64,000 nucleotides of DNA, from the NCBI RefSeq assembly GCF_003710105.1, contig NZ_CP033325.1:1426001-1490000 (forward strand), in the 5' to 3' direction. Shown here one piece after another: positions 8,016 to 52,757 of this stretch. The notes under the pieces are model-generated. The model saw nothing but the letters and a program-made list of their open reading frames with translations, was not told where the DNA came from and searched no databases. The position numbers and the translations under genes are program-made. Within the stretch, counting starts at the first letter, position 1. Every line of letters begins with the position of its first letter. This stretch comes from Georgenia faecalis. Lineage in GTDB: Bacteria; Actinomycetota; Actinomycetes; Actinomycetales; Actinomycetaceae.

Positions 8016-8045
8016 GTGGATCCTTTCGTGTTCGAGTCAGAGGTA

Positions 8046-10000: not shown

Positions 10001-10064
10001 GCTTCTGTCACGTCCTTCCGAAGTGCGGGGTGCGGCGCAGCCGCCCCACCCCGCACCAAGGGAT

Positions 10065-11213
10065 CTAGTTCACCAAGCGCCCGGCCTGCATCACGTGATG
10101 GACGGAACGCAGAGCAGAGGGATCGGTCAAAGGGTCACCGTCGATCGCGACGAGGTCGGCGATCTTCCCCACTTCGATTGAGCCCAGCTCCGACTGCTGA
10201 CGGATGACCTTCGCGCCGTTGAGCGTGAGGCAGCGAATGGCTTCGAGGGGATTCCACCCCGCCTCCACGAGCGCCGACATCTCGATGTCCATCCGCGCGT
10301 GCGCGGTGTCGCAGCCGACAGCAACGGTCACACCCGCCTCGTGCGCCCAGGCCAGCATCCTGGCGCTCGCAGCGAGCGACCCGCTGATCTTCTCGCGGTA
10401 GTGATCCGGCATGTCCGGCGTCTCGGCGACCGCCCGAGCGACCGACTCCGTGCTGATGAGGACGGTGTCAGACCGGGCGATTAGCTCGACTTGCTCCCTG
10501 GTCAGAAGCACGCCGTGCTCGATGGTGTCGACACCGTGCCGCACCGCGACTGTCACGCCGCTCCCGCCGTGAGCATGAGCGGCGATCGGACGCAGTGCCC
10601 TGTGTGCCTCGTCGATCGCTGCCGCGATCTCCTCGTCGGTGAACTCCTGGACAATTGGTGATGACCCTGCCGTCGACATCCCGCCCGACGCCATGACCTT
10701 GATCTGGTCTGCACCCTTCTTGAGCTGCTCACGGACGGCTCTGCGTACGTCGTCGACTCCGTCCGCCTCTCGACCGAGAAAGTGCGCGTGGCCGCCGGTT
10801 CTCATGATCGGCTCAGCGGCGACGAACAGCCGGGGACCGGGGATCTCCCCCGCTGCGATCGCACGCCGCAGTTCCAGGTCAACACCGTGAGGAGCGCCGA
10901 GGTACCGCAGCGTTGTAATGCCGGCGTCCAGCACGACCTTGGCGTTGGCCACGGCCTTCATCGCCATGTAGCTGACGGGCTCCCTCGACTGCGCCTCCTC
11001 GTCGCCGACATCGAGATCGAGGTGGTCGTGGCAGTCGATCAGCCCGGGGATCACCGTAAGGTCGCCGCAGTCGAGGTCGACCGGCTCGCTGGATTCGGCG
11101 GCAGGCCGGATCGCCGAGATCCGGTCGTCGACCACCGTGATGATCATATCCGTGAGGGGCTCGGCACCGGTGCCGTCGATGAGGGTTCCGGCCTTGATAG
11201 TCATCACGGTCAC
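10065..11213 (-). CDS. Metal-dependent amidohydrolase (second of three paralogues)
   Basis: This 382-aa enzyme is of the same amidohydrolase group as its neighbours, with IDCHDHLDLD near the N-terminus, DQIKVMASGG for the bridging lysine, PIAAHAHGGSG, TIEHG, and VGCD as the catalytic Asp segment. The start overlaps the stop of the substrate-binding protein gene by 4 bp (ATGA), so the two are translationally coupled. The paralogues differ enough to suggest different side-chain specificities rather than redundancy; this is inference. Confidence 0.88.
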   Translation of the reverse strand: MTVMTIKAGTLIDGTGAEPLTDMIITVVDDRISAIRPAAESSEPVDLDCGDLTVIPGLIDCHDHLDLDVGDEEAQSREPVSYMAMKAVANAKVVLDAGITTLRYLGAPHGVDLELRRAIAAGEIPGPRLFVAAEPIMRTGGHAHFLGREADGVDDVRRAVREQLKKGADQIKVMASGGMSTAGSSPIVQEFTDEEIAAAIDEAHRALRPIAAHAHGGSGVTVAVRHGVDTIEHGVLLTREQVELIARSDTVLISTESVARAVAETPDMPDHYREKISGSLAASARMLAWAHEAGVTVAVGCDTAHARMDIEMSALVEAGWNPLEAIRCLTLNGAKVIRQQSELGSIEVGKIADLVAIDGDPLTDPSALRSVHHVMQAGRLVN

Positions 11214-12784: not shown

Positions 12785-12834
12785 GTCTTCTCCTCTGAGG
12801 CCTCGATGGGTGGGTGGGGGGGGAGGTGGGGGCG

Positions 12835-14070
12835 TCAGGCCCCGGCGGTGGCGGGTCCGTTGACCACTGGCTCACGCGTCAGGTGCTGATCGGAGAGTCG
12901 CTCGGAACTGCGCGGTTGCGAGACGGGGTAGAGCTGGCCGTACCGGTAGACAGCGCGGACGTCGGAGTACGACGAGGCGCTGGCCAAAGGGTCACTGCCG
13001 AGGACGACTAGGTCGGCGTGCTTGCCAACCTCGACGGTGCCCTGCACGTCGTCCGTGCGGCACAACCGCGCGCCCTCGAGAGTGAGTGATCGGAGCACCT
13101 CTAACGGCGCAAACCCCGCCTCGAGGAGTGCGTCTGCCTCGACCGCGACCTTCCCGTGGTTGCCGTCGCAGCCGATCGCGACCTTGACACCACGTGCGCG
13201 CGCCTCACGGAGCATCTGGATGCGACGGGCCAGCGCTCGCTGAGCCTTGACGCGATAGAACTCCGGTGCGGTGGGATCGTCCGCCACCGCACGGCCGATG
13301 CCAACTGTGCTGACGAGCCACATGCCCGCCTCGGCGATCTGGTCGAGCTGCTCCGTGGTCAGGAATGCGCCGTGTTCGATGCTGCGGAACCCGGCTTTGA
13401 TGGCCGTGTCAACGGCCGGCCCACCGTGCAGGTGCCCGGTGACGTCGAGGCCCGCACGAGCGGCCTCGTCACCGACGGCAAGCAACTCCGCATCCGTGAA
13501 CTCCTGCACCATGGGGTCGCTGCCCGGCGTGGAGTTGCCCCCGGATGCCATGACCTTGATCCATCTCGCGCCGGTCGCCAGGTGCTGCCGGACCGCGCGC
13601 CGCACGGCATCCTCGCCGTCCGCGACCGTGCCCATGAAGTGGGCGTGGCCACCGGTCCGCGTGATCGGTGCGACGGCTGGGATAATTCGCGGCCCCGGGA
13701 TCTTTCCCTCGTCGATCGCCCGCTTGGCCTTGATGTCCATCGCGTCGGCATCACCCAGCGTGCGGACAGTGGTGATCCCGGCCTCGATGATCGTTCGGGC
13801 GACGACCGTGGCGGTTACGGCCTGGCGAGCGAACGGACGCAACGCCTGCTCCACCTCGTCGCCGCCACTGATGGTCAAGTGGTCGTGACAGTCGACGAAC
13901 CCTGGGACGACGACTAGCGTGGAGGCGTCGTGGACGGGAACTCCGGAGCCCGACCAGTCCGCCGCGGGCGAGACCGCGGTAATGGTGCCGTCCTGCACCT
14001 CGATGATGTGATCCGGTAGAGCCCCCGCTACGGGGTCGATCACGGTGCCGGCATGGAGCGCGAAGTGCAT
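12835..14070 (-). CDS. Metal-dependent amidohydrolase (first of three paralogues)
   Basis: This 411-aa amidohydrolase has VDCHDHLTIS, RWIKVMASGGNSTPGSDP, DVTGHLHGGPAVD, SIEHG and IGCDGNHGK, which cover the five metal or catalytic motifs of the superfamily. The start ATG overlaps the last base of the permease gene stop. It carries a C-terminal tail of about 30 residues beyond the usual end of the domain (PVSQPRSSERLSDQHLTREP), which its two paralogues lack. Confidence 0.87.
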   Translation of the reverse strand: MHFALHAGTVIDPVAGALPDHIIEVQDGTITAVSPAADWSGSGVPVHDASTLVVVPGFVDCHDHLTISGGDEVEQALRPFARQAVTATVVARTIIEAGITTVRTLGDADAMDIKAKRAIDEGKIPGPRIIPAVAPITRTGGHAHFMGTVADGEDAVRRAVRQHLATGARWIKVMASGGNSTPGSDPMVQEFTDAELLAVGDEAARAGLDVTGHLHGGPAVDTAIKAGFRSIEHGAFLTTEQLDQIAEAGMWLVSTVGIGRAVADDPTAPEFYRVKAQRALARRIQMLREARARGVKVAIGCDGNHGKVAVEADALLEAGFAPLEVLRSLTLEGARLCRTDDVQGTVEVGKHADLVVLGSDPLASASSYSDVRAVYRYGQLYPVSQPRSSERLSDQHLTREPVVNGPATAGA

Positions 14071-21098: not shown

Positions 21099-21113
21099 CC
21101 CCGAGTGGGATTC
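21099..21113 (+). repeat. attL core (copy of tRNA-Leu 3' segment)
   Basis: CCCCGAGTGGGATTC is identical to 52760-52774, which lies within the T-arm and acceptor of the minus-strand tRNA-Leu gene. The match stops at once on both sides (A before and T after here, G before and G after at the right copy). Confidence 0.82.
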
Positions 21114-21236
21114 TAAGCGATATAGCGGGTATGAACGGCGTGTCGCACAATGTCATGGATTGTCTCTCTGACCTGGGCAGACACCCCGTTTTCGGCGCTC
21201 TGATGATCCCCGAGTTACGTGCCATGTATCGTTCGC

Positions 21237-21267
21237 TGCGACACGTGTGCGACACGTATGCGACACG
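21237..21267 (+). repeat. Three TGCGACACG iterons, candidate integrase arm sites
   Basis: TGCGACACG occurs three times at 11-bp intervals (21237-21245, 21248-21256, 21259-21267), separated by TG and TA. Two copies in the same orientation and spacing lie at 52711-52730 near the other end, within an identical 24-bp segment. Such iterons near attP are typical arm-type binding sites of tyrosine integrases or excisionase sites. Confidence 0.65.
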
Positions 21268-22400
21268 GCGGGGACCGAGATGGCGGGCAAGCGGGCGGGT
21301 TTGGACAGGTCACCAAGCTGCCCTCGGGTCGGTACCGGGCCCGCTACCAGGTGCCGGACGCCTTCCCCCGGCAGTACGTCAACGGGCCGACGACGTTCGC
21401 GCGCAAGGTCGACGCCCAGGACTGGCTCGCGGCTCAACGCACGCTGATCGTCCAAGGTCTTCTCCGGCCGGCGACCGTCGCATCCCGGGTGACTCTCGCC
21501 GAGTACGCCGAGCGCTGGCTCGTCAGCAGGCGCAACTCCAAGGGCGAACCGCTGCGCCCCACGACCGCGCACGTCTACCGCCACTACCTCGACCGGCGCA
21601 TCCTCCCGGCGCTCGGGCCAAGACCGATGCCGCAGATCACGCGGGAGGTGGTCGAACGGTGGTTCGCCGGCCTCCTGCCAGATCGCCCCACGCTCCGTGA
21701 ACGCACGTACGCGCTCCTGAAGACGATGTTCAACAGCGCCGTCGACGACGGCTTGGTCCCGACAAATCCGTGCAGGATCCGAGGAGGCAGCGGCAGTCGG
21801 GCTGTCGTCCAGCCGGTCGTCCTCAACCCGGCCGAGGTCCGCGCCCTTGCCGAGGAGATGCCGGACCACCTGCGGTTGAGCATCTACCTCGGCGCCTGGT
21901 GCCAGCTCCGCTCCGGCGAGCTCCTCGAGCTGAGACGCGGCGACATCGACGATAGATCGGTCCGGATCAGCCGGGGAGTGACGTGGGTCAACTCCCAGCC
22001 GATCGTCGGACCACCAAAGACGGATGCCGGCGTTCGTGCCGTGGCCATCCCTCCGCACATCCGACCCGCCATCGACGAGCACCTCGCTACCTATGCGAAC
22101 TCGGGCAGCCACGGGCTGCTCTTCCCCGCGCGCCCAGGAATCGACCGGCAGATCTACAGCCCCACCTTCGCCGACACGTTCAAGCGAGCTGCGCTACGCG
22201 CCGGGCTCCCCGGGTCGCTCCGGTCCCACCACCTGCGGCACACCGGCCTGACGATCCTGGCGCAGGCGGGCGCAACGCTGGCCGAACTCCAGGCTCGGGC
22301 CGGACACGCCACACCCGGAACCGCGATGCGCTACCAGCACGCTGTCGCTGCGCGTGACGAGCAGATGGCGGACGCGCTCTCAGCTCTTGCCGAGGCGTAG
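21258..22400 (+). CDS. Tyrosine-family site-specific integrase
   Basis: This phage/ICE-type integrase has an N-terminal AP2-like DNA-binding segment (VTKLPSGRYRARYQVPD), a SAM-like core-binding domain (TLAEYAERWLV...) and a C-terminal catalytic domain with Arg in LRSGELLELRRGD, Lys in PKTDAGVRAV, HHLRHTG, AGHATPGT and the nucleophile Tyr in MRYQHA. ATG 21258 is the in-frame start given here, but it has no ribosome-binding site. A GGGGA-preceded ATG at 21280 reads MAGKRAG in another frame and would be the natural family N-terminus, so one base may be missing near 21290-21300. Confidence 0.92.
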   Translation: MRHGGDRDGGQAGGFGQVTKLPSGRYRARYQVPDAFPRQYVNGPTTFARKVDAQDWLAAQRTLIVQGLLRPATVASRVTLAEYAERWLVSRRNSKGEPLRPTTAHVYRHYLDRRILPALGPRPMPQITREVVERWFAGLLPDRPTLRERTYALLKTMFNSAVDDGLVPTNPCRIRGGSGSRAVVQPVVLNPAEVRALAEEMPDHLRLSIYLGAWCQLRSGELLELRRGDIDDRSVRISRGVTWVNSQPIVGPPKTDAGVRAVAIPPHIRPAIDEHLATYANSGSHGLLFPARPGIDRQIYSPTFADTFKRAALRAGLPGSLRSHHLRHTGLTILAQAGATLAELQARAGHATPGTAMRYQHAVAARDEQMADALSALAEA

Positions 22401-22799: not shown

Positions 22800-24386
22800 A
22801 TGCAAATCCTGTACGTCACCGATTTTGTCGTCACGCCCGCCGATGGAGTCAGTCTGCAGGCAGCGGTCGATGCCACCGTCGCGGTGTTGAGCAAGTGGGC
22901 CGGTGACTACGACGCGCCCATCAACGCTTCGGACCTGTTTGAGGGCGGGTACCGCGACCTGAAGGCGACGCACGGGGCGTTGAGGAAGTACGCCAAGTGG
23001 AGCCACCTGGAGTCGCCCACCGGCGACTGGGTGACCCGACTCGACGTCGTGACGATCGAGAATCACGGCAGCCAGTTCACCGCGCGCGTCACCATAGGGA
23101 TGCTCAGTGGGGTGCTGCGACTTCGCCTCGGTCTTGCCCGCGAGGTGGACGCCGCCGGGCTGAGCCCGGTCGCAGAGCCGGAGGTACGACAGCCACGGGT
23201 TCTCCTTGATCTAGTCGAGCACAGCGACCTCCGCGTCTCGAGCGACGGACAAGTGGTCGACGGACAGTATCTTCAGGCGCGCGGTATCGATAACGCCGCC
23301 CTTGTCGCGGAGGTCCTCCACGCACAGCATCGGTTGCCAGTCCTACTCGTCCACTCACGCACCAAGGAGGCGCACCAGGCGATTCGAAGAGCGGCGTCTG
23401 GCTCGATCGGTCTGGTTCGCATCGTGACTGTGGACCTACCGACGGCCCGTCAGCTACTCGCGCTCGAACCGCGCGCGCGCGTGCCCTATGCGGGCGGGTT
23501 GCTGGTGTGGTCGGATCTGGCGGTACCCGCCACCGCGGTCGGCGAGGACATCGTCAACTCGCGCGACTACGACGCCCTGCGCAAAGCTGTCATCGAACAC
23601 ATCGCGCCGCTGTCCGTGCTGACTCGCGGCAGCGACGACGTCTATCGCACAGTCCGGGAGGCTGCGCGCGTGTCGCGTGCAGACCTGGCTGCGGCCCGCA
23701 CTGCCGCGGCTGTCGAGTCCGGTAACTACAGCGCGATCATCGAGGCACTGACTCACGAGCGCGACCAGTTGGGTTTGGACCTGAACGATGCCATGGATGC
23801 ATGGAGCGAGAGCGACGCGCGCGCCCGGGAGCTCGCGAGCGAGGCCGCTCGATGGAAGGCGACCGCAGAGCAGCTGAGAATCGCGCAGAAGTACGTCGGC
23901 GCTGCCGTCATCGATGAGGCGGAGGGGCCGACGTTCGAGAACGCCCCTGAGCTCTCAACCGGCGACCCTGACTCCCTGGCGTCCCTTGCAAGTCACCTAG
24001 AAAGGGCCGCGGAAGAAAGAATTGTGTTTACCGATACGGTGCGCTCCACATGGAAGAAAGCTGACCGGTATCCTACGCCGGAGGCAATGCGGGTGGCGAT
24101 GGTAAAACTCGCGCAGGTTGCTCGCGATCTCTACGATGGGCAAGATCGCACCATGGGACACACCGACAACTGGGTCCGGGAAAACTACGACCTCAAGGTG
24201 TCACTCCAAGACGATAAGATGCCTAAAGGGTTTCGTTCGTTTACGTTTGAGGGCGAAGCGCATGATCGAACGCCTCACGTAAAAGTGAATGACGGCGTTC
24301 CGCCGCACGAGTGCGGCCGGATCTACTTCGCGTTCGATCCGAAGAACGACCGCATGATCGTCGATCACGTTGGCTTGCACTACTAG
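22800..24386 (+). CDS. Hypothetical protein with central coiled-coil region
   Basis: This 528-aa protein is not recognised. The N-terminal half (1-260) looks globular alpha/beta (QILYVTDFVVTPADGVSLQ; LPVLLVHSRTKEAHQAIRRA). Residues about 300-365 are helical and charged (RADLAAARTAAAVESGN, HERDQLGLDLNDAMDAWSE) and probably coiled coil. The last 50 residues form a compact domain (FRSFTFEGEAHDRTPHVKVN; ECGRIYFAFD; VDHVGLHY) that looks conserved and separable. GC content falls in the 3' part. It stands alone between the integrase and the carbamoyltransferase cluster. An effector or defence role is possible from location only. Confidence 0.75.
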   Translation: MQILYVTDFVVTPADGVSLQAAVDATVAVLSKWAGDYDAPINASDLFEGGYRDLKATHGALRKYAKWSHLESPTGDWVTRLDVVTIENHGSQFTARVTIGMLSGVLRLRLGLAREVDAAGLSPVAEPEVRQPRVLLDLVEHSDLRVSSDGQVVDGQYLQARGIDNAALVAEVLHAQHRLPVLLVHSRTKEAHQAIRRAASGSIGLVRIVTVDLPTARQLLALEPRARVPYAGGLLVWSDLAVPATAVGEDIVNSRDYDALRKAVIEHIAPLSVLTRGSDDVYRTVREAARVSRADLAAARTAAAVESGNYSAIIEALTHERDQLGLDLNDAMDAWSESDARARELASEAARWKATAEQLRIAQKYVGAAVIDEAEGPTFENAPELSTGDPDSLASLASHLERAAEERIVFTDTVRSTWKKADRYPTPEAMRVAMVKLAQVARDLYDGQDRTMGHTDNWVRENYDLKVSLQDDKMPKGFRSFTFEGEAHDRTPHVKVNDGVPPHECGRIYFAFDPKNDRMIVDHVGLHY

Positions 24387-25110: not shown

Positions 25111-26712
25111 ATGGACATCTTGTCGGTCAACCCAGGTCACGACGGTGCCATCGCTCACTTGAGTGAGGGTCGTCTCGTCTCATCCGTCGAGGCGGAGAAG
25201 GATTCGAACTACCGATACACCCCGATTGGCAGCCAGGACCTGCTGGCAGCGTTCGGCCGGCTCGACCGCGTGCCCGACGTGGTATGCACCGGCGGTTGGT
25301 GGCCGCGCGAGGCACGTCCGACGGGACCGCCGGTTCACGTCGGATACCGCGGCATCGACTCGGACACCATCACGGTAGAGCGCCGACGTTTGCTCGGGCA
25401 TACAGTCCCGTTCTTTTCGTCCTCGCACGAGCGATCGCACCTGCTGTGTGGGTTTGGCATGTCGCCATTTCCACAAGGCTCGTCCTGTTACGTGTTGGTC
25501 TGGGAAGGAGCAATTGGCGCATTCTACGAGATTGACCAAGATGTGAGAATTACGCGAATTGCGGACGTAATGAACCAGCCCGGAAATCGGTACGCATCGA
25601 TCTATGGTTTAGCAGATCCGACATTCCCCAAGAATGCGCCTTTCTCCCGGTTCTCGGACGCGGGAAAGCTGATGGCGCTCGCCTCGTTCTCGCACCGGTC
25701 CGCCGCCACGTCCGAGGAGGAGGAGTTAATGAATTTTCTCCTTCGCTCCGAGGATCTGCGGCTCGACATGTATGACGAGCTTGAGTCGTCGGTGTATCAC
25801 AACGTGGGCGTCGACGATGTTGAGTTCCGAAATTTTGCGGGCATCTATAGTGATAGGATTTTCGACGTTTTCTATGAGTTCGCGAAGGCGAACCTTCGTG
25901 AGGGCGTGCCCCTGGTGATCGCAGGCGGCTGTGGTTTGAACTGCGATTGGAATACCAGGTGGCGGGACACGGGTTACTTCTCGGACGTCTTTGTGCCCCC
26001 CGTCGCCAACGACTCTGGGTCGGCGATCGGGACCGCGATCGATGCTCAGCTCTACTTCACCGGTGATGCGAAGATCGAGTGGGACGTGTACTCGGGCATG
26101 GCGTTCGTGGCTGACTCTGCATTCGTGTCGGAGCGCTATGACATCCGTGCCGCCACCTGCGCCGACGTCGCTGCCATGCTGAACAGTGGACTGGTCCTCG
26201 GCTGGGTTAGTGGGAGGTACGAGATCGGGCCACGAGCTTTGGGAAATCGATCTATCCTTGCCGCACCCTTCGATGATGCAACGAGGGTTCGTCTGAACCA
26301 CATCAAGCAGCGCGAACAGTTTCGACCGATTGCGCCCGTCTGCCTTGAAGAGGATGCGGCACGGTGGTTTGGCTGCGATCGCGCAAGCCCGTATATGCTT
26401 TATACCTATCGAGCCCGCACCGAAGCCTTGGCAGCGGTGACACACGTCAACGGAACCGCTCGCATCCAGACAGTGACCTCAAGCACGAACACCGCTCTCC
26501 ACGACCTGCTCGTTGCCTTCAAACAGCTCACCGGATACGGGGTCCTCTGCAACACATCGCTGAACTTCAACGGGAAGGGATTCATTAACAACTTGACCGA
26601 TCTCGACAACTACACCTGGGATCACGGACTAGACGGCTTCGTGGTTGATGGTCGGGCTTACCTCTGTAGAGATTCAGAGCGTCGTTCGATATTCCAAACG
26701 GAGCGAGGTTGA
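25111..26712 (+). CDS. Carbamoyltransferase of the NodU/CmcH/TobZ family
   Basis: This 533-aa enzyme would transfer carbamoyl from carbamoyl phosphate (via a carbamoyl-adenylate) to a hydroxyl of a sugar or other acceptor. The N-terminal Kae1-like domain starts MDILSVNPGHDGAIAHL and contains SSSHERSHLL, VLVWEGAIGAFYE and AGGCGLNCDWN. The C-terminal YrdC-like domain has the hallmark YEIGPRALGNRSILAAP (Glu371), KQREQFRPIAP, HVNGTARIQTV and CNTSLNFNGKGF. Codon use is AT-richer than the chromosome, indicating transfer. Two glycosyltransferase-type genes follow on the same strand, so the acceptor is probably a glycan. Confidence 0.9.
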   Translation: MDILSVNPGHDGAIAHLSEGRLVSSVEAEKDSNYRYTPIGSQDLLAAFGRLDRVPDVVCTGGWWPREARPTGPPVHVGYRGIDSDTITVERRRLLGHTVPFFSSSHERSHLLCGFGMSPFPQGSSCYVLVWEGAIGAFYEIDQDVRITRIADVMNQPGNRYASIYGLADPTFPKNAPFSRFSDAGKLMALASFSHRSAATSEEEELMNFLLRSEDLRLDMYDELESSVYHNVGVDDVEFRNFAGIYSDRIFDVFYEFAKANLREGVPLVIAGGCGLNCDWNTRWRDTGYFSDVFVPPVANDSGSAIGTAIDAQLYFTGDAKIEWDVYSGMAFVADSAFVSERYDIRAATCADVAAMLNSGLVLGWVSGRYEIGPRALGNRSILAAPFDDATRVRLNHIKQREQFRPIAPVCLEEDAARWFGCDRASPYMLYTYRARTEALAAVTHVNGTARIQTVTSSTNTALHDLLVAFKQLTGYGVLCNTSLNFNGKGFINNLTDLDNYTWDHGLDGFVVDGRAYLCRDSERRSIFQTERG

Positions 26713-26794: not shown

Positions 26795-27631
26795 ATGAGC
26801 GACGGCCCACCAGGCTTCGAGGAGGACGACCGTCTGCGTTCGGACTTCATCAGGAGACTGACGCTGGCGCAGCTTGAGCGTGACTACGACTCGCCGGGGC
26901 CAGCAGATGGAGTAGGCGCAGAACCTATCCCGAGGACGCTCGTGCGGTACTGGAACGATCCGGACGACGTCCCCGCAGACGTACGCAGGTGCCTGCGTAG
27001 TTGGGAGGTGCTCCGCGACGAGGGGCTCTCGATCGAGATGTTTGGTGACGCCTCAGCGAGGAAGTACATAGCGAAACGGTATGGTCGCAGAGAGATTGCA
27101 GCGTTCGACCGGTGCCGTCATCCCGCGATGCGTAGTGACTATCTCCGGCTGTGCTACGTGCTCGCTGAGGGAGGGCTCTACGTCGATGCGGATGACGTGC
27201 TGGTAGGCGAAGGGTGGCGAGAGGTCTTCCGCGACCACACGCTGAAGGTCCAGCCGCTGTGCTACGACATCAGCATCGGTGGCATGGTGTCGGCGGAGCA
27301 GCTTAGAAGACCTGATCTTTCTACTGAGGGGCGGATTTTTTATGTGAACAACAACCCGATAGCCGCGCCGGCCGCCCACCCAGTGCTGCGGCGAGCGCTC
27401 TCGCGTGCGACAGACAGGCTTCTAGGCGAGGATCCAGCTCCCGAAATCCAATCAACTACCGGACCTGGAAACCTGACGGCGTCGCTGGCTGCTCATGCTA
27501 ACGAGAGGCAGAACGCGGGGGCCCAGCCGGACTTTTCGCTGCTCCTCACCTGGGACGCGACGGCAGAGCCTTGCTGGGACTTGGCCTACCGTGCAGACGC
27601 TCGGAATTGGCGCAACATGGATGCCTGGTAG
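26795..27631 (+). CDS. DXD-containing glycosyltransferase (Gly_transf_sug type)
   Basis: This 278-aa protein matches the GT32/capsular sugar-transferase style: IPRTLVRYWNDPDDVPADVRRCLRSW, then FDRCRHPAMRSDYLRLCYVLAEGGLYVDADD, where DADD is the nucleotide-sugar metal site preceded by the conserved A-x-SDxLR-x-x-L segment. The C-terminal part (YVNNNPIAAPAAHPVLRRAL; STTGPGNLT) fits the family. ATG 26795 is chosen because it starts the compact homologous region; upstream in-frame starts reach back into the carbamoyltransferase gene. It is 82 bp after that gene and 9 bp before the fusion protein gene, so the three form one operon. Confidence 0.82.
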   Translation: MSDGPPGFEEDDRLRSDFIRRLTLAQLERDYDSPGPADGVGAEPIPRTLVRYWNDPDDVPADVRRCLRSWEVLRDEGLSIEMFGDASARKYIAKRYGRREIAAFDRCRHPAMRSDYLRLCYVLAEGGLYVDADDVLVGEGWREVFRDHTLKVQPLCYDISIGGMVSAEQLRRPDLSTEGRIFYVNNNPIAAPAAHPVLRRALSRATDRLLGEDPAPEIQSTTGPGNLTASLAAHANERQNAGAQPDFSLLLTWDATAEPCWDLAYRADARNWRNMDAW

Positions 27632-27640
27632 AACGGCCAG

Positions 27641-29755
27641 ATGAACCTCAGCGATGTTGCGACTCCCTTACAGGCTATCGCGTTCCGTACCTGGCGCGCA
27701 CTGACCGTTCTATTGCCAGGTGGGCGCTCTAGTGCGTTTGGCCGAGGAGCCGATCAGATCGGTGCAATCCTGGTCGTAAATTTGGATAGGCAGCCAAGTC
27801 GATGGACTCGAGTCTGCGCGGAACTGCGTCGATTCCGGACGTCTGATGGCATCCGCTTGACCTCCATCACGAGACGACTAGCGGCCATCGATGCTCGTGA
27901 CGGTCGTGCAGTCGCAGCGACCGCCGACGTAGATCCGATGTACCGGATCGGTGACCAGCTTTATGTACAGCCAGACGCTCGCCTCGCGCATTCCTTCGCG
28001 GCGTCGGAGCCTGTGCGGATGACTCGCCAGGAGGTGGCGGTCGCGCGGTCACACGTGGAGGCCTGGAAGGAGGTGGTGTCGGGATCCCACGACTTCGTTC
28101 TCATCCTTGAGGACGATGCGTGGTTCAAGCCCGGCGCGAGAACTGCCATCGATCGTGGATGGCGCGCGGCCCTCGGTCGGTTTGCGGACAACGAGCGCCC
28201 GCAACTCCTCTACCTGTCGTACTCAGATGCTGGCGGCACTGCAGTGCGGCACGAGGTGTGTGCGGATCTGTTCCGCCCCGTGCGAGGCCTGTGGTTTCTC
28301 TCGGGGTACGTCCTCTCCCGCGAAGGTGCAGCGGCGCTTCTCCGAGCGATGCCAGTCGTCGGGCCCGTGGATCTCTGGATGAACTACCGGTTCCCAGAGG
28401 TTAAGGCGCTTGCGCTCTCGCGTCCGGCGATCGCTCAGAGGCACGACGTGACATCTGACAACGCATATTCGATGATGCCGTTTCTGGCTCGAGCGGGCAT
28501 TGTTGATGGGGTCTCCGAAGCTAAGCCGACCGGCGGAGCTGTATGCGGTCCGGTGCTGGCGTGGTCGGGAGGTAGGGAGAACGAGTGTCTCGCTATGGCG
28601 CTCTCGATGCTTGGAATGCGTGTGCGTGCCTTCGATGGTCATGAGGTTCCGATGGATCATCGTGAGCTGTCGGAGGTCCTAAAGACTTTCGATGCCCTCA
28701 TCGATCCTCCATTAGCTCCGGCGGCGCTTACTGCTGCTGCAGCCGACGATCGTTTCTTATGGCTGCGGGAAGCTGATGCGCGCGCCCCGGATGTGGTCGA
28801 CTCATTGCTCCTCCCGCCACGTCGTTCTGCAGTCCTTCGTCTCAATGACCAGGGCGGAGGTACTTGGCGCGACATTTGCTCTCTGCTCCAAGTCTCCGAG
28901 CCGGTCGCCCCGTTCCCGTCTGGTGTTCCGCGTGAGTTCCGCATGTTTCGCGACGGTCGATTGCCCACAGATCTAAATGTCGAGGCACCGTCCCGGCGCG
29001 AAAGCATGCCCATAGACGATTCGCCGTGGGCTTTACCGACGTCAAGCAGATGGCGGCCGTCCCGAAAGAAGGATTCAATCCCGAATAGCAGCGGATGTGT
29101 CGTGGTTGAGGCGACCATGTCGGAGATATCGCCAGAGTTCCGCGTGCTCACTGAAACGTTCCCTGGAAACCTGTCGTCGTTCGCGGCGGGGGGCCTCGAA
29201 CATCGCGAGGACGGCGTTCGAGTTGTGATCGACGTCTGTAAAGGGGAGGGGCGACCCTATCAATCTGGCGCGTTCGTCAGCGCTCGGTCCTTCTCCTATG
29301 GGCGCTTTCAAGCACAAATCCAGGCCGTCTCGGGTTCGGGACTCGTAACGGGTTTCTTTCTTCATCGCGGCTCCCCAAGGCAGGAGATCGACATCGAGTT
29401 CGCAGGTTCCGATCCTCGGCGGATGCTGACCAACGTCTTCTTCAACCCGGGGGATGAGGGCACAGAAATGGACTACGGCTACCGCGGTTCTCCCTGTTGG
29501 ATTGATCTCGGCTTCGACGCCACTGAGGGAGTTCACGAGTACGCCATCGATTGGAGACCGGACCGTGTGACCTGGCTCGTCGATAGAGCGGTCGTCCATG
29601 AGCGAGCCAGTTGGGACCCGACCCCGATTCCTCATCTAGCTATGCGTGTCTACGGCAATGTGTGGGCGCCGCGTTCTGAGGAACTGGCCGGAAGGGTAGA
29701 TGAACGTGCGCTCCCCGCATCCGCCAGCTTCAGGAACGTGGTTGTGGCCGACTAA
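27641..29755 (+). CDS. GT25 glycosyltransferase / sulfotransferase-like / GH16 fusion protein
   Basis: This 704-aa protein has three parts. Residues about 40-290 resemble family GT25: ILVVNLDRQPSRW, RQEVAVARSHVEAWKEVV and the metal site LILEDDAWF (Glu157-Asp159). Residues about 295-460 loosely resemble a sulfotransferase (GPVLAWSGGRENECLAMALS; ICSLLQVSEPVAPFPSGVP); this call is tentative. Residues about 495-704 are a GH16 glucanase domain with the catalytic EIDIEF (Glu582, Asp584, Glu586), GFFLHRGSPRQ and HEYAIDWRPDRVTWLVD. No signal peptide or membrane segment is obvious. Synthesis and cleavage activities in one chain are unusual. Confidence 0.83.
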   Translation: MNLSDVATPLQAIAFRTWRALTVLLPGGRSSAFGRGADQIGAILVVNLDRQPSRWTRVCAELRRFRTSDGIRLTSITRRLAAIDARDGRAVAATADVDPMYRIGDQLYVQPDARLAHSFAASEPVRMTRQEVAVARSHVEAWKEVVSGSHDFVLILEDDAWFKPGARTAIDRGWRAALGRFADNERPQLLYLSYSDAGGTAVRHEVCADLFRPVRGLWFLSGYVLSREGAAALLRAMPVVGPVDLWMNYRFPEVKALALSRPAIAQRHDVTSDNAYSMMPFLARAGIVDGVSEAKPTGGAVCGPVLAWSGGRENECLAMALSMLGMRVRAFDGHEVPMDHRELSEVLKTFDALIDPPLAPAALTAAAADDRFLWLREADARAPDVVDSLLLPPRRSAVLRLNDQGGGTWRDICSLLQVSEPVAPFPSGVPREFRMFRDGRLPTDLNVEAPSRRESMPIDDSPWALPTSSRWRPSRKKDSIPNSSGCVVVEATMSEISPEFRVLTETFPGNLSSFAAGGLEHREDGVRVVIDVCKGEGRPYQSGAFVSARSFSYGRFQAQIQAVSGSGLVTGFFLHRGSPRQEIDIEFAGSDPRRMLTNVFFNPGDEGTEMDYGYRGSPCWIDLGFDATEGVHEYAIDWRPDRVTWLVDRAVVHERASWDPTPIPHLAMRVYGNVWAPRSEELAGRVDERALPASASFRNVVVAD

Positions 29756-30127: not shown

Positions 30128-30469
30128 GTGCGCGCGGCCATCCCTCACCGGGTCGTGGGAACCAGCGAACGTAGGAAGCGGTCGCGGCCGGCCCGGGACT
30201 GGGTGACGGCGGCTACACCCCGCGCGCTCGGGACTCCCCTGCAGGCCCGTTGCGAGGAGTGCGGTCTTGAGTTCAGTGCGCGGCGGCGTGACGCTCGGTA
30301 CTGCTCGACGACCTGCCAATCTCGGAGCCGGCGGCGCGTCGCACGCCGGTGCGCGAATTGCCGGAAGCCGCTGCCGTCGTCCATGCGCTCCAACGCCCTG
30401 TACTGCTCCGGCCGCTGCAGGCAGAAGGCACACCGCGCCCGGGCCAAGATCTCGGGTGGCTCGCAATGA
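30128..30469 (+). CDS. Small double zinc-finger protein
   Basis: This 113-aa protein contains two Cys4 units, CEECGLEFSARRRDARYCSTTC and CANCRKPLPSSMRSNALYCSGRC (both split here by the length rule but contiguous), with a basic linker between them. Such MYND/zinc-ribbon-like pairs bind nucleic acid or protein. Its stop overlaps the relaxase start (ATGA), so it is translationally coupled and may be an accessory DNA-binding factor of mobilization. GTG 30128 is the most upstream start; GTG codons further in are also possible. Confidence 0.65.
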   Translation: MRAAIPHRVVGTSERRKRSRPARDWVTAATPRALGTPLQARCEECGLEFSARRRDARYCSTTCQSRSRRRVARRCANCRKPLPSSMRSNALYCSGRCRQKAHRARAKISGGSQ

Positions 30470-33400
30470 TGAGCATGTGCGTGCGTTACGCGGGGGAGTC
30501 CTACACCTACTTGCTGGACTCGGTCACCACCGACCACGGCCGCTCGGGTGTCAACCCGATGACGCGCTATTACGCGACGCATGGCACACCGCCGGGGACC
30601 TGGCTGGCCAGCGGGCTCGCGGGACTGGACAAAGGGCAGGGGCTCGCACCGCGCAGTTTCGTGACGCCCGTCCAGATGGAACGGCTCTTCGCCAACGGTG
30701 CCGATCCTGTGACTGGCGAAGCGCTTGGCAGGTCCCCGCACGTCTACGCCGCCGACGCCGAACGGCGCCGTCCCGTCGCAGGCTTTGACTCCACGTTCAC
30801 GGTCCCGAAGTCGGTCAGCGTGCTTTGGGCGCTGGCTGATGCCGGTACGCGGGATGTGATCTATGAGTGCCACCGGCAGGCGATCACCGACGTCGTGGCT
30901 CTGATCGAGCGTGACGTTGCCCGCACTCGGATCGGTACGAACGGCGTCGCGCAGGTCGAGGTCAACGGGGTGATCGCGGCGGCGTTCGACCACTGGGACT
31001 CGCGCGAGAACGACCCCAACCTCCACACGCACGTGGTGATCGCCAACCGGGTCCAGGCCGCCGACGGCCGGTGGCGAACTCTCGATTCTCGCGCGATTCA
31101 TCGCGCGGCCGTGGCCATGTCCGAGCGCTACGACACCCTCCTGGCCGATCACCTCACCCGCCGGCTCGGGCTTGCTTGGGAGTACCGGGAGCGTGGACCG
31201 CGGCGCAATCCCGCCTTCGAGCTGAGCGCCATCCCGCAACCACTCCTCGACTGCTTCTCGCAGCGATCGGTGTCCATCGATGCCGAAGCAGACCGCCTCA
31301 TCGAGCGGTACCAGAGCGACCACGGCCGCCGGCCCGATGCACCGACCGTCCTCCGTCTGCGCCAGCAGGCCACCCTCGCCACCCGCGGCGCGAAGGAGGT
31401 CCGCAGCCTCGAGGAGCTCACCGCCGAGTGGAGAGAGCGCGCCGACACCGTTCTGGGTGCGGAGTCGCTCGCGTGGACCGGGCGCGTTCTCGCCGACCCT
31501 CGTACCCGCCTTCCGGACCCGCCCCATCCTTCGGCGTGGGCAAATGAGGCCGCCACCGCCGTGCTGGCTGTCCTCGCTCGGAAGCGTTCGACGTGGACGG
31601 CGTGGAACATCGAGGCGGCGGCCGCCCGCGCGCGCAAGCCACACCGGTTCGACACCGCGGACGAGCGCGACCAGGCCGTCGCAACCGTCGTCGCCGAGGT
31701 GGAACGACGCTCGGTCCGCCTCACTCCGCCGGAAGCCGCGCCGACGCCCGCGGAGCTGCAGCGAAGGGACGGCACCAGTGCCTTCCGTGCTTTCCGCGGC
31801 GAGGTCTACACCGCCCACACCACGCTCGACGCCGAGGCGCGACTCCTCACCGCTGGACGTGATCGGAACGGACCGGTGCTCGACGTCGACCATCTCGACC
31901 AGGGCGGGCTGTTCGGTGACCAAGCCTCCGCGGTCCGGTCCATCGGCTTCTCGTGCCGGGTGCTGGACGTGCTGGTCGGTCCGGCCGGCTCGGGCAAGAC
32001 CCACACGCTCCCGCGCTGCGAGCCTCCTGGGAAGGCACTCACGGGTGGGGATCCGTTGTCGGCCTGGCGCCGTTGGCCGCGGCGGCCGAGGTTCTCGGAG
32101 CCAGTCTCGGCGTGGAGACCGAGAACACGGCCAAGTGGCTCGTTGAGCATGACGCCGAAGCCGAGCGGCGGCGTCGCCTTGCCCGCGCGCGCAGCATCCT
32201 CCCGGGCACGGTGACTCGGGGGAGTGTGCGTGAGGTTGCCGCCCACATCCAGCGGCTCACCCAAGAGGTCGAGCGGTGGCGCTTCCGTGCGGGGCAGCTG
32301 GTGATCATCGACGAGGCCTCCCTGGCCGGAACCGCAAGTCTCGACCGGATCGTTGCCTGCGCGGGAGAGGCCGGGGCGAAGGTGCTCCTCGTGGGGGACT
32401 GGGCCCAGCTGTCCGCCATCGACGCGGGCGGCGCCTTCGGCCTCCTGGTCCGTGACCGCGGCACGGGAGCACCCGAGCTCGGCACCGCCCGCCGCTTCAG
32501 CCACGCCTGGGAGAGAGAGGCAGCGGCGCTGCTGCGGGTGGGCGACCCGGACTGTCTCCGCTTCTACGAGCACCACGGCCGGGTCCGCGAGGGGGACCAC
32601 GACGACATGGTCGACGGCGCCTACGCGACCTGGCGCGTGGACGAGCTCGCCGGGAAGCGATCCCTGCTCATCGCCGGCGACGGCGACACCGTTCGCGCGC
32701 TCAACGAACGCGCGCGCGCCGAGCTCGTCGTCGCTGGCCGCGTCGTCCCCGACGGCAGTCGCTTGCGCGATGGGCTCTTCGCAGGCGTCGGTGATCGCGT
32801 CGTCACACGCCGCAACGACCGCCGCCTCACAGTCGGGCCAAGGTGGGTGAAGAACGGCGACACGTGGATCGTCACCGCCCGCCACAACGACGGTGCCTTG
32901 ACCGTCAAGCGGCCCCGCGGTGGGCCGAGCGTCACCCTGCCCGCAACGTACGTCCGTGGGCACGTCGAGCTGGGGTACGCCACCACGGCGTTCCGCGCCC
33001 AAGGCGCAACCGTCGACACAGCGCACGCGATCGTCACCGGCCCCGGCCTGACACGCGAAGTGCTCTACGTGATGCTCACCCGCGCCCGTGAGGCGAACAC
33101 GGCCTACGTCTGCACCGACCGACCCGTCGAGCCCCTCCATGGGTTCTCTGAGGCACCCACCACAGGTAGGGGTGTCTTGACGAGCGTCATGGAACGTCGG
33201 AGCCGCTCTCTCCGCACACGAGACGAACGAGCGGGAACTCGACGAGGCAAGCTCCATCCGCACCCTCGCCGCCGAGTACGACACCATCGCCCAACTCGCT
33301 CAAGCAGAGCGCTGGACTGCACTCCTCACCCGCGCGGGCCTCGCCCCCGACCAAGTCGACGCTGTCACGGCATCGGGCGCCCTCGGTGCCCTCGGAGCGG

Positions 33401-33990
33401 CGCTGCGCCGCGCCGAAGCACGAGGCATCGCACTCGAAGACGACCTCCCGTTCATTATCAAGCGGGCGGACACCGGCGCTGAGGACCTCGCCGCCGTACT
33501 CCACGAGCGTGTCGACCGCTGGACAGAAGCGTCGCCCCCTGCGACCACCGCGGCCGCCGCGGCAGATCGCCTGATCCTCGGCTTCCTCCCGGTTGCCACT
33601 ACCGATGACGCCGCCATGGCGGCAGCGCTGACTGAACGTGCGCGCCTTATGGAACTGCGCGCGGAGCTCCTTGTTGAGCGCGCTCGGGCTGCAGGCTCGC
33701 CATGGCTTAGGCACCTCGAGGAAGACCTCGGCACCGCGACGGATACGGTCCCGTGGTCTTCAGCTGCCCGAATGGTCGCCGCTTACAGGGAGCGCCATCA
33801 GGTCAGCGACCCCGACCGGTCCCTAGGCCAGATCGACTCGGCGGCCACCCAGCAACGGCGCGAAAGCAGGATGGTCGGCTTCGCCTTAGCGCGGCTCAGC
33901 GAGCCGCTTCCGTCGGATGCGGGGCGGATTACGCAGTCGGGCGTCGCGGCCATGTCGACCCAACCAGATGCGGGCTCGATCGGGCGGTAG
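30466..33990 (+). pseudogene. MobF-family (TrwC/TraA-like) relaxase-helicase, two frameshifts
   Basis: The combined frames encode about 1,174 residues, typical of actinobacterial MobF relaxases. The N-terminal relaxase has the Tyr pair in MTRYYATHG, DSTFTVPKSVSVLWALAD and the HUH motif NLHTHVVIAN (His187, His189). The helicase part has Walker A VGPAGSGKTHT (Lys511), VIIDEASLAGT and GYATTAFRAQGATVDTAH. After Walker A the frame shifts near 32009-32020 (next frame ALRASWEGTHGWGSVVGLAP) and returns to the original frame near 33195-33205 (GAALSAHETNERELD). The shifts compensate, so only the helicase domain is out of frame. Decay or sequence errors are both possible. Confidence 0.85.
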
Positions 33991-35682: not shown

Positions 35683-36037
35683 GACCGGCCACCAGAAGGT
35701 CGCCCCACGTCCTCGCTGGCCTCATCACGCTCGCCGTCGTCCTGGCCGCGTGGGTGCTCGCCGGGCCAGCACCATCGGGCGCTGGACGGCCGAGGCCTGT
35801 TCGCCTTGATTCTGGGCGCCGCAGCCCTCGCCACTGTCACGCTCGGCGACAGGTAGCCAGCGAGCGCGTCCCGCTCCTCAAGCACGTCACAGGCGCCAGG
35901 CTGAGGCTGACGAGGAGCCTGGGGAGGTAGCCCTCTCGCGCGGGACCGCGCGCCGGCCCCTCGTGGCCGTCTGCTAGGAAGGACGGAGCGCGATCGAGGG
36001 CCGGCAAGGTGCGGTCGGCGGGGAGGAGGATGTGGCG
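35683..36037. other. Intergenic region before the zinc-ribbon nuclease gene
   Basis: About 355 bp contain no supported gene. The right end holds the strong ribosome-binding site GGAGGAGG (36022-36029) of the next gene. Confidence 0.45.
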
Positions 36038-37837
36038 ATGAGTGCGCAGCCCGTGAAGGATTGTGTGGAGCCCGAGTGTGACCGTCCGGGTGCGTTCCGC
36101 ACCAGGAGCAGGCCCACATGGTGCGATGAGCACATCACCGCACTGCTTCACCGCGCCGGGCTTGAGCCACTCGAGCCGTTCCCCGGCAAGCCCGCGCTGT
36201 ACCGGCTGACGCGCTGCCTGACGTGCGGGTGCGAGGCCCACTACCGGCTCGAGTACGTCCTCGACCGGAACAGCATCGGCGAGCCGACGTGCCGTGCGTG
36301 CTACTGGCGCGACTGGGCGGGCAATCTGCGAGTGAGGCAGGCTGGCTACGCCGACCTGAGCCCGGTCCCGCGCGAAGAGGCGGCCGCGCACGCTGAGCTG
36401 CATGGGTTCGACTACCTCCGCCCGCTCACCGAACCGTCACTGCAGGACGACCCCCACCACGTCCGGTGCAAGCACTGCGGGCACCTCAGCGCGCAGCGCC
36501 TGGGTGACATCGGCTTTGGATGCTCGTGCCAGGTGAACGCCAAGAGGAGCTCCGCCGCCCGGCGGGAGAGCGAGACGCCCAAGCCGCCCGCCCTGTTCAA
36601 GGACTCCGGCGTGCCTGCGGTCCAGTGGTGGGACCACGAGCGCAACACGGCGGAGGAGTGGGCCACCACCCGGCCCAGGGCACGTCGAGAGGTGTGGTGG
36701 AGGTGCCCCGAATGCCTCGACCCGTTCCAGGCGCGAGTGCTGGACATGGCGAACTCCGCGCAGTGCCCCGTCTGCGAGCCGAAGCGCCGTGCCGCGTACC
36801 AAGCGCAGTACGAGCGGTACAAGCGCACCCCGGTGGCCGCCGTTCCCGAGCTCGCCGCGGCGTGGGCGGACGACGCTGACCCCGCGACGGTGCCGGTGGC
36901 CGGGGAGTGGAAGCTGCGGCGGTTCCGCTGCCCCCAGGGGCACCACCCCAGGATCTCCCCGCTGACCTACCTCGAGTCCGGGTGCCCGCACTGCCGCGCC
37001 CGACGAACCGCCGAGGAGAAGCTCGCCGCCCTCGAGGTCGACCCCGGCGCCTTCGGCATGAACCCCGAGATCGCTGCCCAGTGGCACCCGACGAAGAACG
37101 GGAAGCTGAGCGTGGAGCGCACCTCGCCGACCTCACGCAGGACGGTGTGGTGGCGGGAGGAGAGCTGCGGGCACGAGTGGCAGGCGACACCCGCCGACCG
37201 GGAGAAGGGGCAGCGGCTGCGGTGCCCGCATTGCCGCACGATCCTGGACTCCCTCGCGTACCACTTCCCGCTCCTGGCGACCCAGTGGGCGCCGGAGAAC
37301 CCTGTGTCGGCGTGGCATGTGCGCCCGACCGCGGTCCTGGCGTTCCTGCCGCGGTGGCAGTGCCCGCAGGACTCGTCGCATACCTGGCAGTCGCCCGTGG
37401 GCTCGAGGACTGTCGGCTCCGGCTGTCCCATGTGCAAGGAGGCCGGCAAGTCCGCCATCGAGCTTGAGATGCTGGAGGCCGCACGCTCCCACTTCGGCAA
37501 CGCCACGTCGGGACGCCCGCTGCGGGACCAGGCCTTCACGGCGCGCTCGGTCTGGCACCCCGACATCACCGTCGAGCTGGCGTCGGGGCAGACGCTGGTG
37601 ATCGAGTACGACGGCGCCTACTGGCACTCGGACAAGGCCGAGGTCGACACGGCCAAGTCGCGCGACCTGCTGGCCGCTGGGTACCTCGTGATGCGCCTTC
37701 GCGAGCACCCGCTCCCGCCTCTAACCATCAGCTCCGAGCGGTACGGCGAGGCCGTCGTGTACGCGAATGCCCCGGACCCTCGAGGGGCGGTCGAAGATGT
37801 GGCGCGGTGGGTGCGTGAAGCGACGCGGAAACGCTGA
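36038..37837 (+). CDS. Multi-zinc-ribbon protein with Vsr-like endonuclease domain
   Basis: This 599-aa protein contains a series of Cys-x-x-Cys zinc ribbons (CLTCGCEAHYRLEY...CRAC; CKHCGHLSAQ; WWRCPECLDPF...CPVC; RFRCPQGHHPR...CPHC; WWREESCGHEW...CPHC; RWQCPQDSSHTW...CPMC), several of the DUF4379 type with conserved W and N. The C-terminal 130 residues form a Vsr/PD-(D/E)xK-type nuclease: HPDITVE (Asp509), LVIEYDGAYWHSD (Glu523, Asp525), KSRDLLAAGYLVMRLRE. GGAGGAGG lies 8 nt before ATG 36038. It is presumed to be a DNA nuclease with nucleic-acid-reading ribbons; a defence role is inferred from family habit and neighbourhood. Confidence 0.82.
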   Translation: MSAQPVKDCVEPECDRPGAFRTRSRPTWCDEHITALLHRAGLEPLEPFPGKPALYRLTRCLTCGCEAHYRLEYVLDRNSIGEPTCRACYWRDWAGNLRVRQAGYADLSPVPREEAAAHAELHGFDYLRPLTEPSLQDDPHHVRCKHCGHLSAQRLGDIGFGCSCQVNAKRSSAARRESETPKPPALFKDSGVPAVQWWDHERNTAEEWATTRPRARREVWWRCPECLDPFQARVLDMANSAQCPVCEPKRRAAYQAQYERYKRTPVAAVPELAAAWADDADPATVPVAGEWKLRRFRCPQGHHPRISPLTYLESGCPHCRARRTAEEKLAALEVDPGAFGMNPEIAAQWHPTKNGKLSVERTSPTSRRTVWWREESCGHEWQATPADREKGQRLRCPHCRTILDSLAYHFPLLATQWAPENPVSAWHVRPTAVLAFLPRWQCPQDSSHTWQSPVGSRTVGSGCPMCKEAGKSAIELEMLEAARSHFGNATSGRPLRDQAFTARSVWHPDITVELASGQTLVIEYDGAYWHSDKAEVDTAKSRDLLAAGYLVMRLREHPLPPLTISSERYGEAVVYANAPDPRGAVEDVARWVREATRKR

Positions 37838-42333: not shown

Positions 42334-42406
42334 CTGCCTGTAGCTCAGTTGGTCAGAGTGCCCGGCTGAAACCTGGGAGACGCGGGTTCAAGTCCCGTCA
42401 GGTCCA
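42334..42406 (+). tRNA. tRNA-Phe(GAA)-like gene with imperfect acceptor stem
   Basis: The D arm (TAGCTCAGTTGGTCAGAGT), anticodon stem-loop (CCCGG, CTGAAAC, CTGGG; anticodon GAA) and T arm (GCGGG, TTCAAGT, CCCGT) are well formed. The 3' acceptor strand CAGGTCC plus A pairs with CCTG at positions 4-7 and by G-U at position 3, but positions 1-2 (CT) cannot pair with CC. It differs clearly from the usual actinobacterial tRNA-Phe. It may be an element-borne tRNA, a decayed copy or half of an old attachment site. CCA is not encoded. Confidence 0.6.
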
Positions 42407-42445
42407 CACAGGGGCTCCCGGCCCTCGGCCGGGAGCCCCGGTGTG
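42405..42445 (+). terminator. Very stable hairpin after the tRNA-like gene
   Basis: GGGGCTCCCGGCC (42411-42423), loop CTC, GGCCGGGAGCCCC (42427-42439) form a perfect 13-bp stem. It is extended by CACAC (42405-42409) pairing with GTGTG (42441-42445) across one A-G mismatch. It begins within the 3' end of the tRNA-like gene and would act as a terminator, though no U tract follows. Confidence 0.7.
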
Positions 42446-42988: not shown

Positions 42989-44101
42989 CTACCTGAAGAC
43001 GTCAGCGAAGGTGTAGGCGAGCGACAGCGCTTCCTGGTTGCCAGCAGCGGCGAAGGTCGCGAGCAACCGCCGGAAGGCGTCTGCGCCTACGGCGTCGAAG
43101 AGCACGAGTGGACGCTGCACGGTGAGCAGTCGTTGTAGATACGTGACGACGATGTCGCCTGCCAGAGGATCACCTGCGTAACTGCTGTCGGGGGGCACCG
43201 CGTCGGCGACTGCCTGCAAGGCGCTTGCCTCCTTCAGAGGTGCGAGGAACACCATCGCTTTGACGGCCGGGTGCACGCACTGCGGCGCGTGCGTCGACGC
43301 GCACCTGCTCAGCACCGGCATCGCGAGGTCGGCGAAGCCCGCGTCAGGCACCGCGAGCTCCACTTTCGGATCGCGCCTACTTTCGAACGCGCCACTCGCA
43401 AAGTAGACCTGTTGCGCGACCTCGCGGCAGATCAGCACGGCGCCCTGAATCTCGGCGAGCTGGGCTTCCGTCAGGTTCGACGCCGCCAACGAGAGCTTCC
43501 CTGGATCGCGCCCCAGGCGCGCTGCCGAGGCGTCGGCGGCCGACCACAATAGCGCGAACGCCCGCGCTTGTATTCCGACTTCGGTCCCAGCGAGATACCG
43601 GCGGGCCGACTTTGCGAACCGCGAGACCGCCATGGGTCGAGTCGGCGCCTCGTCACACCATCGCTCGACGGTTGCGGACGCGAACGGTGTCCTCGCCACA
43701 ACGGCGAGATACGTCAGCAGTTCGACCGTCACGTCGGCGCCTAAGTCGCCATCGCCGGGGTCGCCGCCCTTGTGGAGCCGTGCGAGCACGTCGTCCACGA
43801 CCGCCGGCGCGGCCGCGGCCGCCAACTGTCCAAGAAGGACCGAACGCACGCGCTCGTCTTGCTCGGCGAGCACGAGATCGCCGACTGTTGACGCTCTCTG
43901 TTCCTCGTCCTGGTCGGCGTAGATCGCTAGCACGCCCTCGGCCGCCCGCATTCTCACGCCTGGGCTGTCGTCGTGGAGCCCGGCCGCGACTGCGCCGGTG
44001 ATCGCGGCGGCGTCATCGCCCGAGCGCCAATCTCGCCGGGCGAGTAGCGCAACGAGGCCGCCGATGGCCGCGTCACGGACTCCGGGGCTCCACGCGATCA
44101 C
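42989..44101 (-). CDS. HEAT-repeat-like protein, partner (or split C-terminus) of the STAND ATPase
   Basis: This 370-aa, Ala-rich helical protein starts MIAWSPGVRDAAIGGLVALL and continues with HEAT-like units (DDSPGVRMRAAEGVLAIYAD; DERVRSVLLGQLAAAAAPAV). GTG 44101 overlaps the TGA of the upstream STAND gene (GTGA), giving translational coupling. Alternatively it is the C-terminal sensor region of that protein split by a 1-nt frameshift: restoring one base near 44105-44112 would read through as about 1,605 residues. No catalytic motif is visible. Confidence 0.75.
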   Translation of the reverse strand: MIAWSPGVRDAAIGGLVALLARRDWRSGDDAAAITGAVAAGLHDDSPGVRMRAAEGVLAIYADQDEEQRASTVGDLVLAEQDERVRSVLLGQLAAAAAPAVVDDVLARLHKGGDPGDGDLGADVTVELLTYLAVVARTPFASATVERWCDEAPTRPMAVSRFAKSARRYLAGTEVGIQARAFALLWSAADASAARLGRDPGKLSLAASNLTEAQLAEIQGAVLICREVAQQVYFASGAFESRRDPKVELAVPDAGFADLAMPVLSRCASTHAPQCVHPAVKAMVFLAPLKEASALQAVADAVPPDSSYAGDPLAGDIVVTYLQRLLTVQRPLVLFDAVGADAFRRLLATFAAAGNQEALSLAYTFADVFR

Positions 44102-49913: not shown

Positions 49914-50062
49914 TCCGCGAGCACTACGGCAGCATCGCCGCCTGCGTCCGAGCCCACCAGGACGGCTGACCAGCGAGACGTGCACGTGGCGCGATCGCGC
50001 CGCGCGAGTCGGCGTCGAGCGGCCGCGCTAGATCGGCGGCATGTCCGGCGGTCGGAACTCGC

Positions 50063-50091: not shown

Positions 50092-50103
50092 AAGGGCTGC
50101 ACC

Positions 50104-52706: not shown

Positions 52707-52710
52707 TCGC

Positions 52711-52730: not shown

Positions 52731-52757
52731 AGGTGGCGTTTTCGCAGGTCAGATGGG

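Follow-up and report, generated by a model that had tools for sequence, protein, structure and literature searches.

The GH16 licheninases (GH16_21) and the EG16, XTH and Crh enzymes are characterized by a jelly-roll fold and a regular-strand ExDxE motif, and those known from bacteria are, as a rule, secreted glucanases. The GT25 enzymes, among them the LOS galactosyltransferases and procollagen galactosyltransferase 1, carry the GT25 Pfam domain with its EDD motif, while both carbamoyltransferase domains are found in the O-carbamoyltransferases TobZ, NodU and GdmN and in the phage Nol-like family phrog_1601. Among candidate anti-phage systems, the HEC and PDC sets of PADLOC are mobile, sporadic in occurrence and positioned amid anti-phage genes.

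Here, we describe an operon of Georgenia faecalis that resembles each of these and differs from each. It lies in a stretch of 64,000 nucleotides (NZ_CP033325.1, positions 1,426,001 to 1,490,000), hereafter the window, to which all coordinates below refer unless another locus is named. Its central protein shares the fold and motif of the GH16 enzymes, but is predicted to be cytosolic and is joined to a glycosyltransferase; it likewise shares the domain and motif of the GT25 enzymes, but adds a C-terminal pseudo-sulfotransferase and a GH16 domain and has no visible membrane or LPS association. The carbamoyltransferase of the operon possesses both domains of the TobZ, NodU, GdmN and phrog_1601 proteins, but is linked to a GT32 gene and to the fusion gene, and is optional. 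Similar to the HEC and PDC candidates, the operon is mobile, sporadic and surrounded by anti-phage genes, whereas it consists of carbohydrate-active enzymes only and matches no PADLOC model.

The individual domains are known; the architecture, the GT32 partner and the residence in defence islands are without description in the libraries and literature searched. A full-text literature search, mainly of main texts in openly accessible journals, returned no description of the fusion or the operon; passages of the GH16 subfamily survey (PMC6827312) brought up by keyword search contained no GT-fused or intracellular subfamily, and the main text of DefensePredictor mentions no glycosyltransferase or carbamoyl enzyme. 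Annotation pipelines file the protein as “family 16 glycosylhydrolase”, which masks its three-domain architecture. As we know of no defence system built of such carbohydrate-active enzymes, and as the PADLOC scan was empty, the operon is rated as a new kind of candidate system, defence being its candidate function. The mobile, defence-island context, which was absent from the initial annotation of this DNA, is the main result of the present analysis.

Domain architecture of the fusion protein

The gene at 27641-29755 (+) is one unbroken frame of 704 residues, which had initially been read as a GT25 glycosyltransferase and a GH16 glucanase linked by a sulfotransferase-like segment, without a signal peptide. 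Both enzymatic domains were confirmed by Pfam above the curated cut-offs: PF01755 (GT25) matches residues 123-245 (28007-28375, +) with an E value of 1.2e-7 and 32.3 bits against a cut-off of 24, and PF00722 (GH16) matches residues 540-679 with an E value of 8.8e-28 and 97.4 bits against a cut-off of 22. The two profiles also match all 62 scanned family members, the best GT25 E value being 1.3e-23. An AlphaFold2 model of the fusion, with family sequences as input, has a mean pLDDT of 84.1, and the linker at residues 441-479 (28961-29077, +), where pLDDT falls below 50, is probably flexible.

In the GT25 domain, E157, D158 and D159 of the EDD motif (28109-28117, +) are unchanged in 62 of 62 aligned members, and the closest solved structure to this part, in a search with the L050 protein, is procollagen galactosyltransferase 1 (E 4e-7). 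The GH16 jelly-roll domain occupies residues from about 485 to 704 (29093-29752, +) and includes the catalytic motif EIDIE at residues 582-586 (29384-29398, +), of which E582, D584 and E586 agree with the ExDx(x)E pattern and are invariant in the same 62 members. EIDIE is the regular-strand form of the GH16 motif, typical of licheninases and xyloglucan enzymes, in agreement with the licheninase fold match: the GH16 part of the model superposes on lichenase 3i4i with a Z score of 29.8 and an rmsd of 1.5 over 204 residues, the aligned rows (VIA-align) being confined to this part, and its beta-jelly-roll is also near those of VvEG16 and Crh5 (Z about 24). With its catalytic residues intact, the GH16 domain is predicted to be a glycan-cutting enzyme.

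The sulfotransferase-like assignment of the middle domain (residues from about 300 to 430; 28538-28930, +) is weak for the window protein itself, which PF17784 matches below its cut-off (E 0.083), but stands for the family, in which 39 of 62 members are matched (best E 6.2e-9); sulfotransferases also top the fold search with the isolated predicted middle domain of a clade II member (6b50, E 2.5e-3, probability 1.00). A working 5'-phosphosulfate-binding loop is expected to carry a basic residue. In clade II (63 sequences), the loop reads G-x-x-[GND]-S-G-[LQ]-[ST]-S-L and the basic residue is absent from nearly all rows, and in clade I (24 sequences, including that of the window) the loop has a one-residue deletion, with E or D replacing S/T. 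Judged from these alignments, the P-loop is destroyed in clade I, and the middle domain is a pseudo-sulfotransferase that has lost the normal PAPS-loop chemistry; an active sulfotransferase was rejected because this loop chemistry is gone.

No hydrophobic segment was detected at the N-terminus of the fusion, the family median of the top 19-residue KD mean within residues 1-45 being 0.64, and a mean above 1.6 occurs anywhere in just four of 87 family proteins. The absence of an evident signal peptide or membrane segment thus extends across the family, and the cytosol is the predicted site of the protein. A secreted glucanase with an overlooked signal peptide was discarded, as the family N-termini are not hydrophobic.

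Operon partners and distribution among bacteria

Directly upstream of the fusion gene lies a gene for a small GT32-like glycosyltransferase of the DXD type (26795-27631, +; PF04488 E 5.5e-5), whose start codon is inferred within an open frame that extends back to 26645. The GT32-like protein has a weak match to Och1-type mannosyltransferase, and a GGxYxDxD motif is conserved among its homologs. In a survey of 89 loci from plasmids, genomes and viral contigs, this gene adjoins the fusion gene, in the same upstream position, at 80 of the 84 assessable loci, and the two genes form a near-obligate core.

The third gene (25111-26712, +) encodes an O-carbamoyltransferase of the TobZ/NodU family with both Carbam_trans domains, N and C (PF16861 E 6e-54; PF02543 E 1.6e-23), which are kept across 52 operon members; compared with solved structures, it matches TobZ, GdmN and related enzymes with E values of 1e-30 to 1e-35. 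It was found at 59 of 79 loci in three arrangements (carbamoyltransferase-GT32-fusion at 20, GT32-fusion-carbamoyltransferase at 32 and divergently upstream at seven), ten more loci being left out of this count for flanks that are too short. At 20 loci whose flanks are long enough it is absent, and a search of 15 genomes or records that lack a local copy revealed no cognate copy elsewhere (103 bits at best, for a local match of 30-39%). The carbamoyltransferase is therefore an optional module; a fixed three-gene system was rejected, and the supposition that the fusion always occurs with the carbamoyltransferase gave way to GT32 as the near-obligate partner. Overlaps of 4 bp between the reading frames of the operon are common, suggesting co-transcription.

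Scanning with two peptide patterns, at one genome per species, yielded 154 relatives, which is a lower bound, and 80 of them, nearly all full length, were kept. The full-length fusion is also present on finished plasmids, on E. coli chromosomes and at about 80 other loci. The initial suspicion of a functional fusion is supported. The tree of the fusion interleaves 17 phylum labels, some of which come from metagenome bins and may be wrong; the closest relatives of the window copy are from Chloroflexota and Acidimicrobiaceae, and the copies of Methylobacter and Scalindua are sisters. The operon was found in Gram-positive Actinomycetota, Chloroflexota, Bacteroidota and Proteobacteria, mostly as single and sporadic copies: within the window's phylum, two of 396 sampled genomes have the system, as do four of 5426 E. 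coli genomes, a search of 98 related genomes gave nothing beyond weak GH16-domain matches, and 50,697 phage records gave no match to the fusion. A decayed fusion with an in-frame stop was observed in Dyella monticola (L030, 10061-11815), and GT32 was not found at that locus.

The operon is mobile. It is carried by conjugative plasmids of Sphingobium, Rhizorhabdus, Citrobacter and Klebsiella and by other plasmids, an E. coli copy sits on an ICE beside virB genes, and the fusion is carried by the IMG/VR contigs L090-L092, with terminase and portal genes among the pooled neighbours on viral contigs. Other cargo near some copies includes ubiD, hchA and transporter genes. On the conjugative IncC plasmid pCf164_LMB-1 of Citrobacter freundii (L007), the operon is found together with blaLMB-1, arr-3, dfrA27, aadA16 and sul1.

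The integrated element and the defence-gene neighbourhood

Over the operon of the window, the GC content is 0.605-0.618, down from about 0.70, and third-position GC is 0.64-0.70, compared with about 0.95 in the flanking core genes. A repeat search identified a left attachment repeat of 15 bp, CCCCGAGTGGGATTC (21099-21113), and its recurrence as the right attachment repeat (52760-52774) in the 3' end of a tRNA-Leu gene (52754-52832, −); a 24-bp repeat, TCGCTGCGACACGTGTGCGACACG, which is a possible recombinase arm site, occurs near the left end (21233-21256) and again near the right end (52707-52730). A tyrosine integrase (21219-22400, +; PF00589 E 4e-17) and a MobF relaxase/helicase, divided between two frames that overlap (30349-32214 and 31953-33482, together 30349-33482, +; NF041492 E 5e-74, TraA-like helicase part E 5e-42), are encoded between the attachment repeats. 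Taken together, the attachment repeats at tRNA-Leu, the integrase and the MobF pieces indicate an integrated element of about 31.7 kb, and the operon is low-GC cargo of this element, inserted at tRNA-Leu. The split frames may have broken the MobF relaxase, in which case the element may no longer be self-mobile.

Immediately upstream of the operon, the same element encodes a HEC-07-like candidate defence protein (22800-24386, +; PADLOC E 3.9e-10); it also carries a PDC-M54A-like candidate defence gene (42992-47802, −; PADLOC E 7e-111 and 6e-15) that spans two overlapping frames (44101-47802 and 42992-44257) and is likely frameshifted, and an Mrr-like restriction nuclease domain (50041-50943, +) with PADLOC matches to PDC-S02, ZorD and mREase_IV, which makes the window itself a defence island.

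Several other features of the window were observed. A cysteine-rich zinc-ribbon protein (36032-37834, +), with a C-terminus like that of very-short-patch-repair type endonucleases, has no PADLOC match, and a tRNA-Phe gene (42334-42407, +) lies within the element, far from the attachment tRNA-Leu. To the left of the element, three related amidohydrolase genes (6849, 10068 and 12838) are located among oligopeptide ABC transporter genes (6849-14070, −). A tandem pair of paralogous genes at 61018-62817 (−), VIT/CCC1-like by eye, has the stretch LEQRLN(A/S)LRAGVLGANDGI in common.

The neighbourhood of the operon elsewhere was assessed with the five nearest ORFs of at least 150 aa at each of 20 loci (100 genes), the control being five ORFs from far away on each contig (100 genes). 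At E≤1e-12, matches to 204 PADLOC families were obtained for the neighbours, compared with three for the controls, a contrast that tallies models, many of them redundant, and is not a count of genes; the three families matched by the controls look like generic ATPase-type models. The location in defence islands is thus beyond chance, although such islands hold non-defence cargo too and neighbourhood does not equal function. Single scans of ten larger neighbours, chosen by size and not randomly, gave strong matches at six loci, to Type IIG RM, TmtA, PDC-S06, ZacC, LmuB and AriA, and annotated plasmid and E. coli copies are near Shedu, Lit, Abi, ABC-three-component, multiubiquitin/ThiF and DUF262 genes. 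The fusion, the GT32 protein and the carbamoyltransferase themselves match none of 5027 PADLOC models at E≤1, a set that covers models up to 2023, and a known defence protein was rejected on this basis.

Proposed working and alternative explanations

The folds of the operon proteins point to carbohydrate chemistry, and it is the gene neighbourhood that suggests defence. We propose that the operon is a mobile, cytosolic glycan-making module with an intracellular action against phages, a reading that we prefer to the others but regard as evenly poised between right and wrong. All enzymes of the operon would act in the cytosol, their predicted location. GT32 and GT25 would start from common nucleotide sugars and assemble a short glycan on an acceptor, the tethered GH16, with its retaining residues intact, would trim this glycan or pass it to a second acceptor by transglycosylation, and, in operons that include it, the carbamoyltransferase would cap a hydroxyl group of a sugar, whereas the middle domain would be a scaffold or binding domain and not a sulfotransferase. 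Glycan editing during synthesis, which the initial annotation had suggested, appears plausible in light of a catalytically intact GH16 domain that is tethered to GT25 and co-encoded with GT32. An intracellular product or modification would hamper phages or other invading DNA. More tentatively, a glycan built and transferred by GT32, the GT25-GH16 fusion and the optional carbamoyltransferase might inactivate a component of the phage, or an essential one of the host, during infection, as an immune system of carbohydrate-active enzymes only; we consider this specific form possible rather than probable. Two points of general experience count against an anti-phage module of this kind: GH16 and GT25 enzymes usually work on envelope or extracellular glycans, and most defence systems include a nuclease, toxin, sensor or NTPase, none of which is encoded in the operon itself.

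Alternatively, a surface glycan (LPS core, capsule or wall glycan) could be modified on the cytosolic side before export, by which phage adsorption would be blocked or antigenicity changed; the operon would then protect the cell as well, but by way of the envelope. GT25 is a classical LPS glycosyltransferase family, as the name of the Pfam model reflects, and NodU-type enzymes put carbamoyl groups on signal glycans. In addition, plasmid-encoded surface polysaccharides are able to block phages, according to passages of one study (PMC11942015). However, the actinobacterial, chloroflexotal, bacteroidotal and proteobacterial hosts have no common LPS acceptor, and occurrence in both Gram-positive and Gram-negative phyla speaks against LPS as the sole target and in favour of donors and acceptors that are widely shared. 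Moreover, clustering of the neighbours for a recurrent extra subunit recovered mainly integrases and recombinases, with one response regulator in four loci, and no recurrent transporter, flippase, polymerase, lipid-carrier transferase or membrane segment. We therefore regard masking of a receptor as rather unlikely, and the unusual export route raised in the initial annotation draws no support from these neighbours.

The operon might also be cargo unrelated to defence, whose product, a small carbamoylated glycoside or oligosaccharide with a link to antibiotics, signalling or stress, would be of use to the host or the element, with the defence genes merely co-located. Such a role would be in keeping with the closest solved carbamoyltransferases (TobZ, GdmN and the novobiocin enzyme), which tailor antibiotics, and with the metabolic cargo or resistance genes around some copies. 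We doubt this explanation, as the neighbour clustering revealed no conserved exporter, regulator, resistance or sugar-nucleotide gene nearby, and as the mostly single, sporadic copies cross phyla and are enriched beside anti-phage genes. Considerably less probable is a role in counter-defence or entry, in which molecules of the element or the host would be modified to help conjugative elements and phages establish: the carriers are indeed conjugative plasmids, ICEs and phage-like contigs, and an ArdC-family antirestriction gene is close by in E. coli, but ArdC-like neighbours are not recurrent and many copies lie on large chromosomal contigs amid resident defence genes. Finally, a functionless chance fusion, a frameshift fusion or an assembly artefact at the junction, the last of which the initial annotation had allowed for, is given practically no weight despite the atypically low GC of the segment, since the fusion recurs in about 80 full-length copies whose catalytic residues are invariant and the window genome is a single contig.

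Whichever function applies, this three-domain enzyme is widespread, strongly conserved and carried on mobile DNA, and the proposed anti-phage module is directly testable in laboratory strains, as there are copies on the chromosomes of E. coli and Pseudomonas. If the anti-phage action is true, intracellular glycan chemistry would join the known immune strategies; if the operon does not serve defence, it would still represent a new GH16/GT25 architecture with a predicted intracellular glycan.
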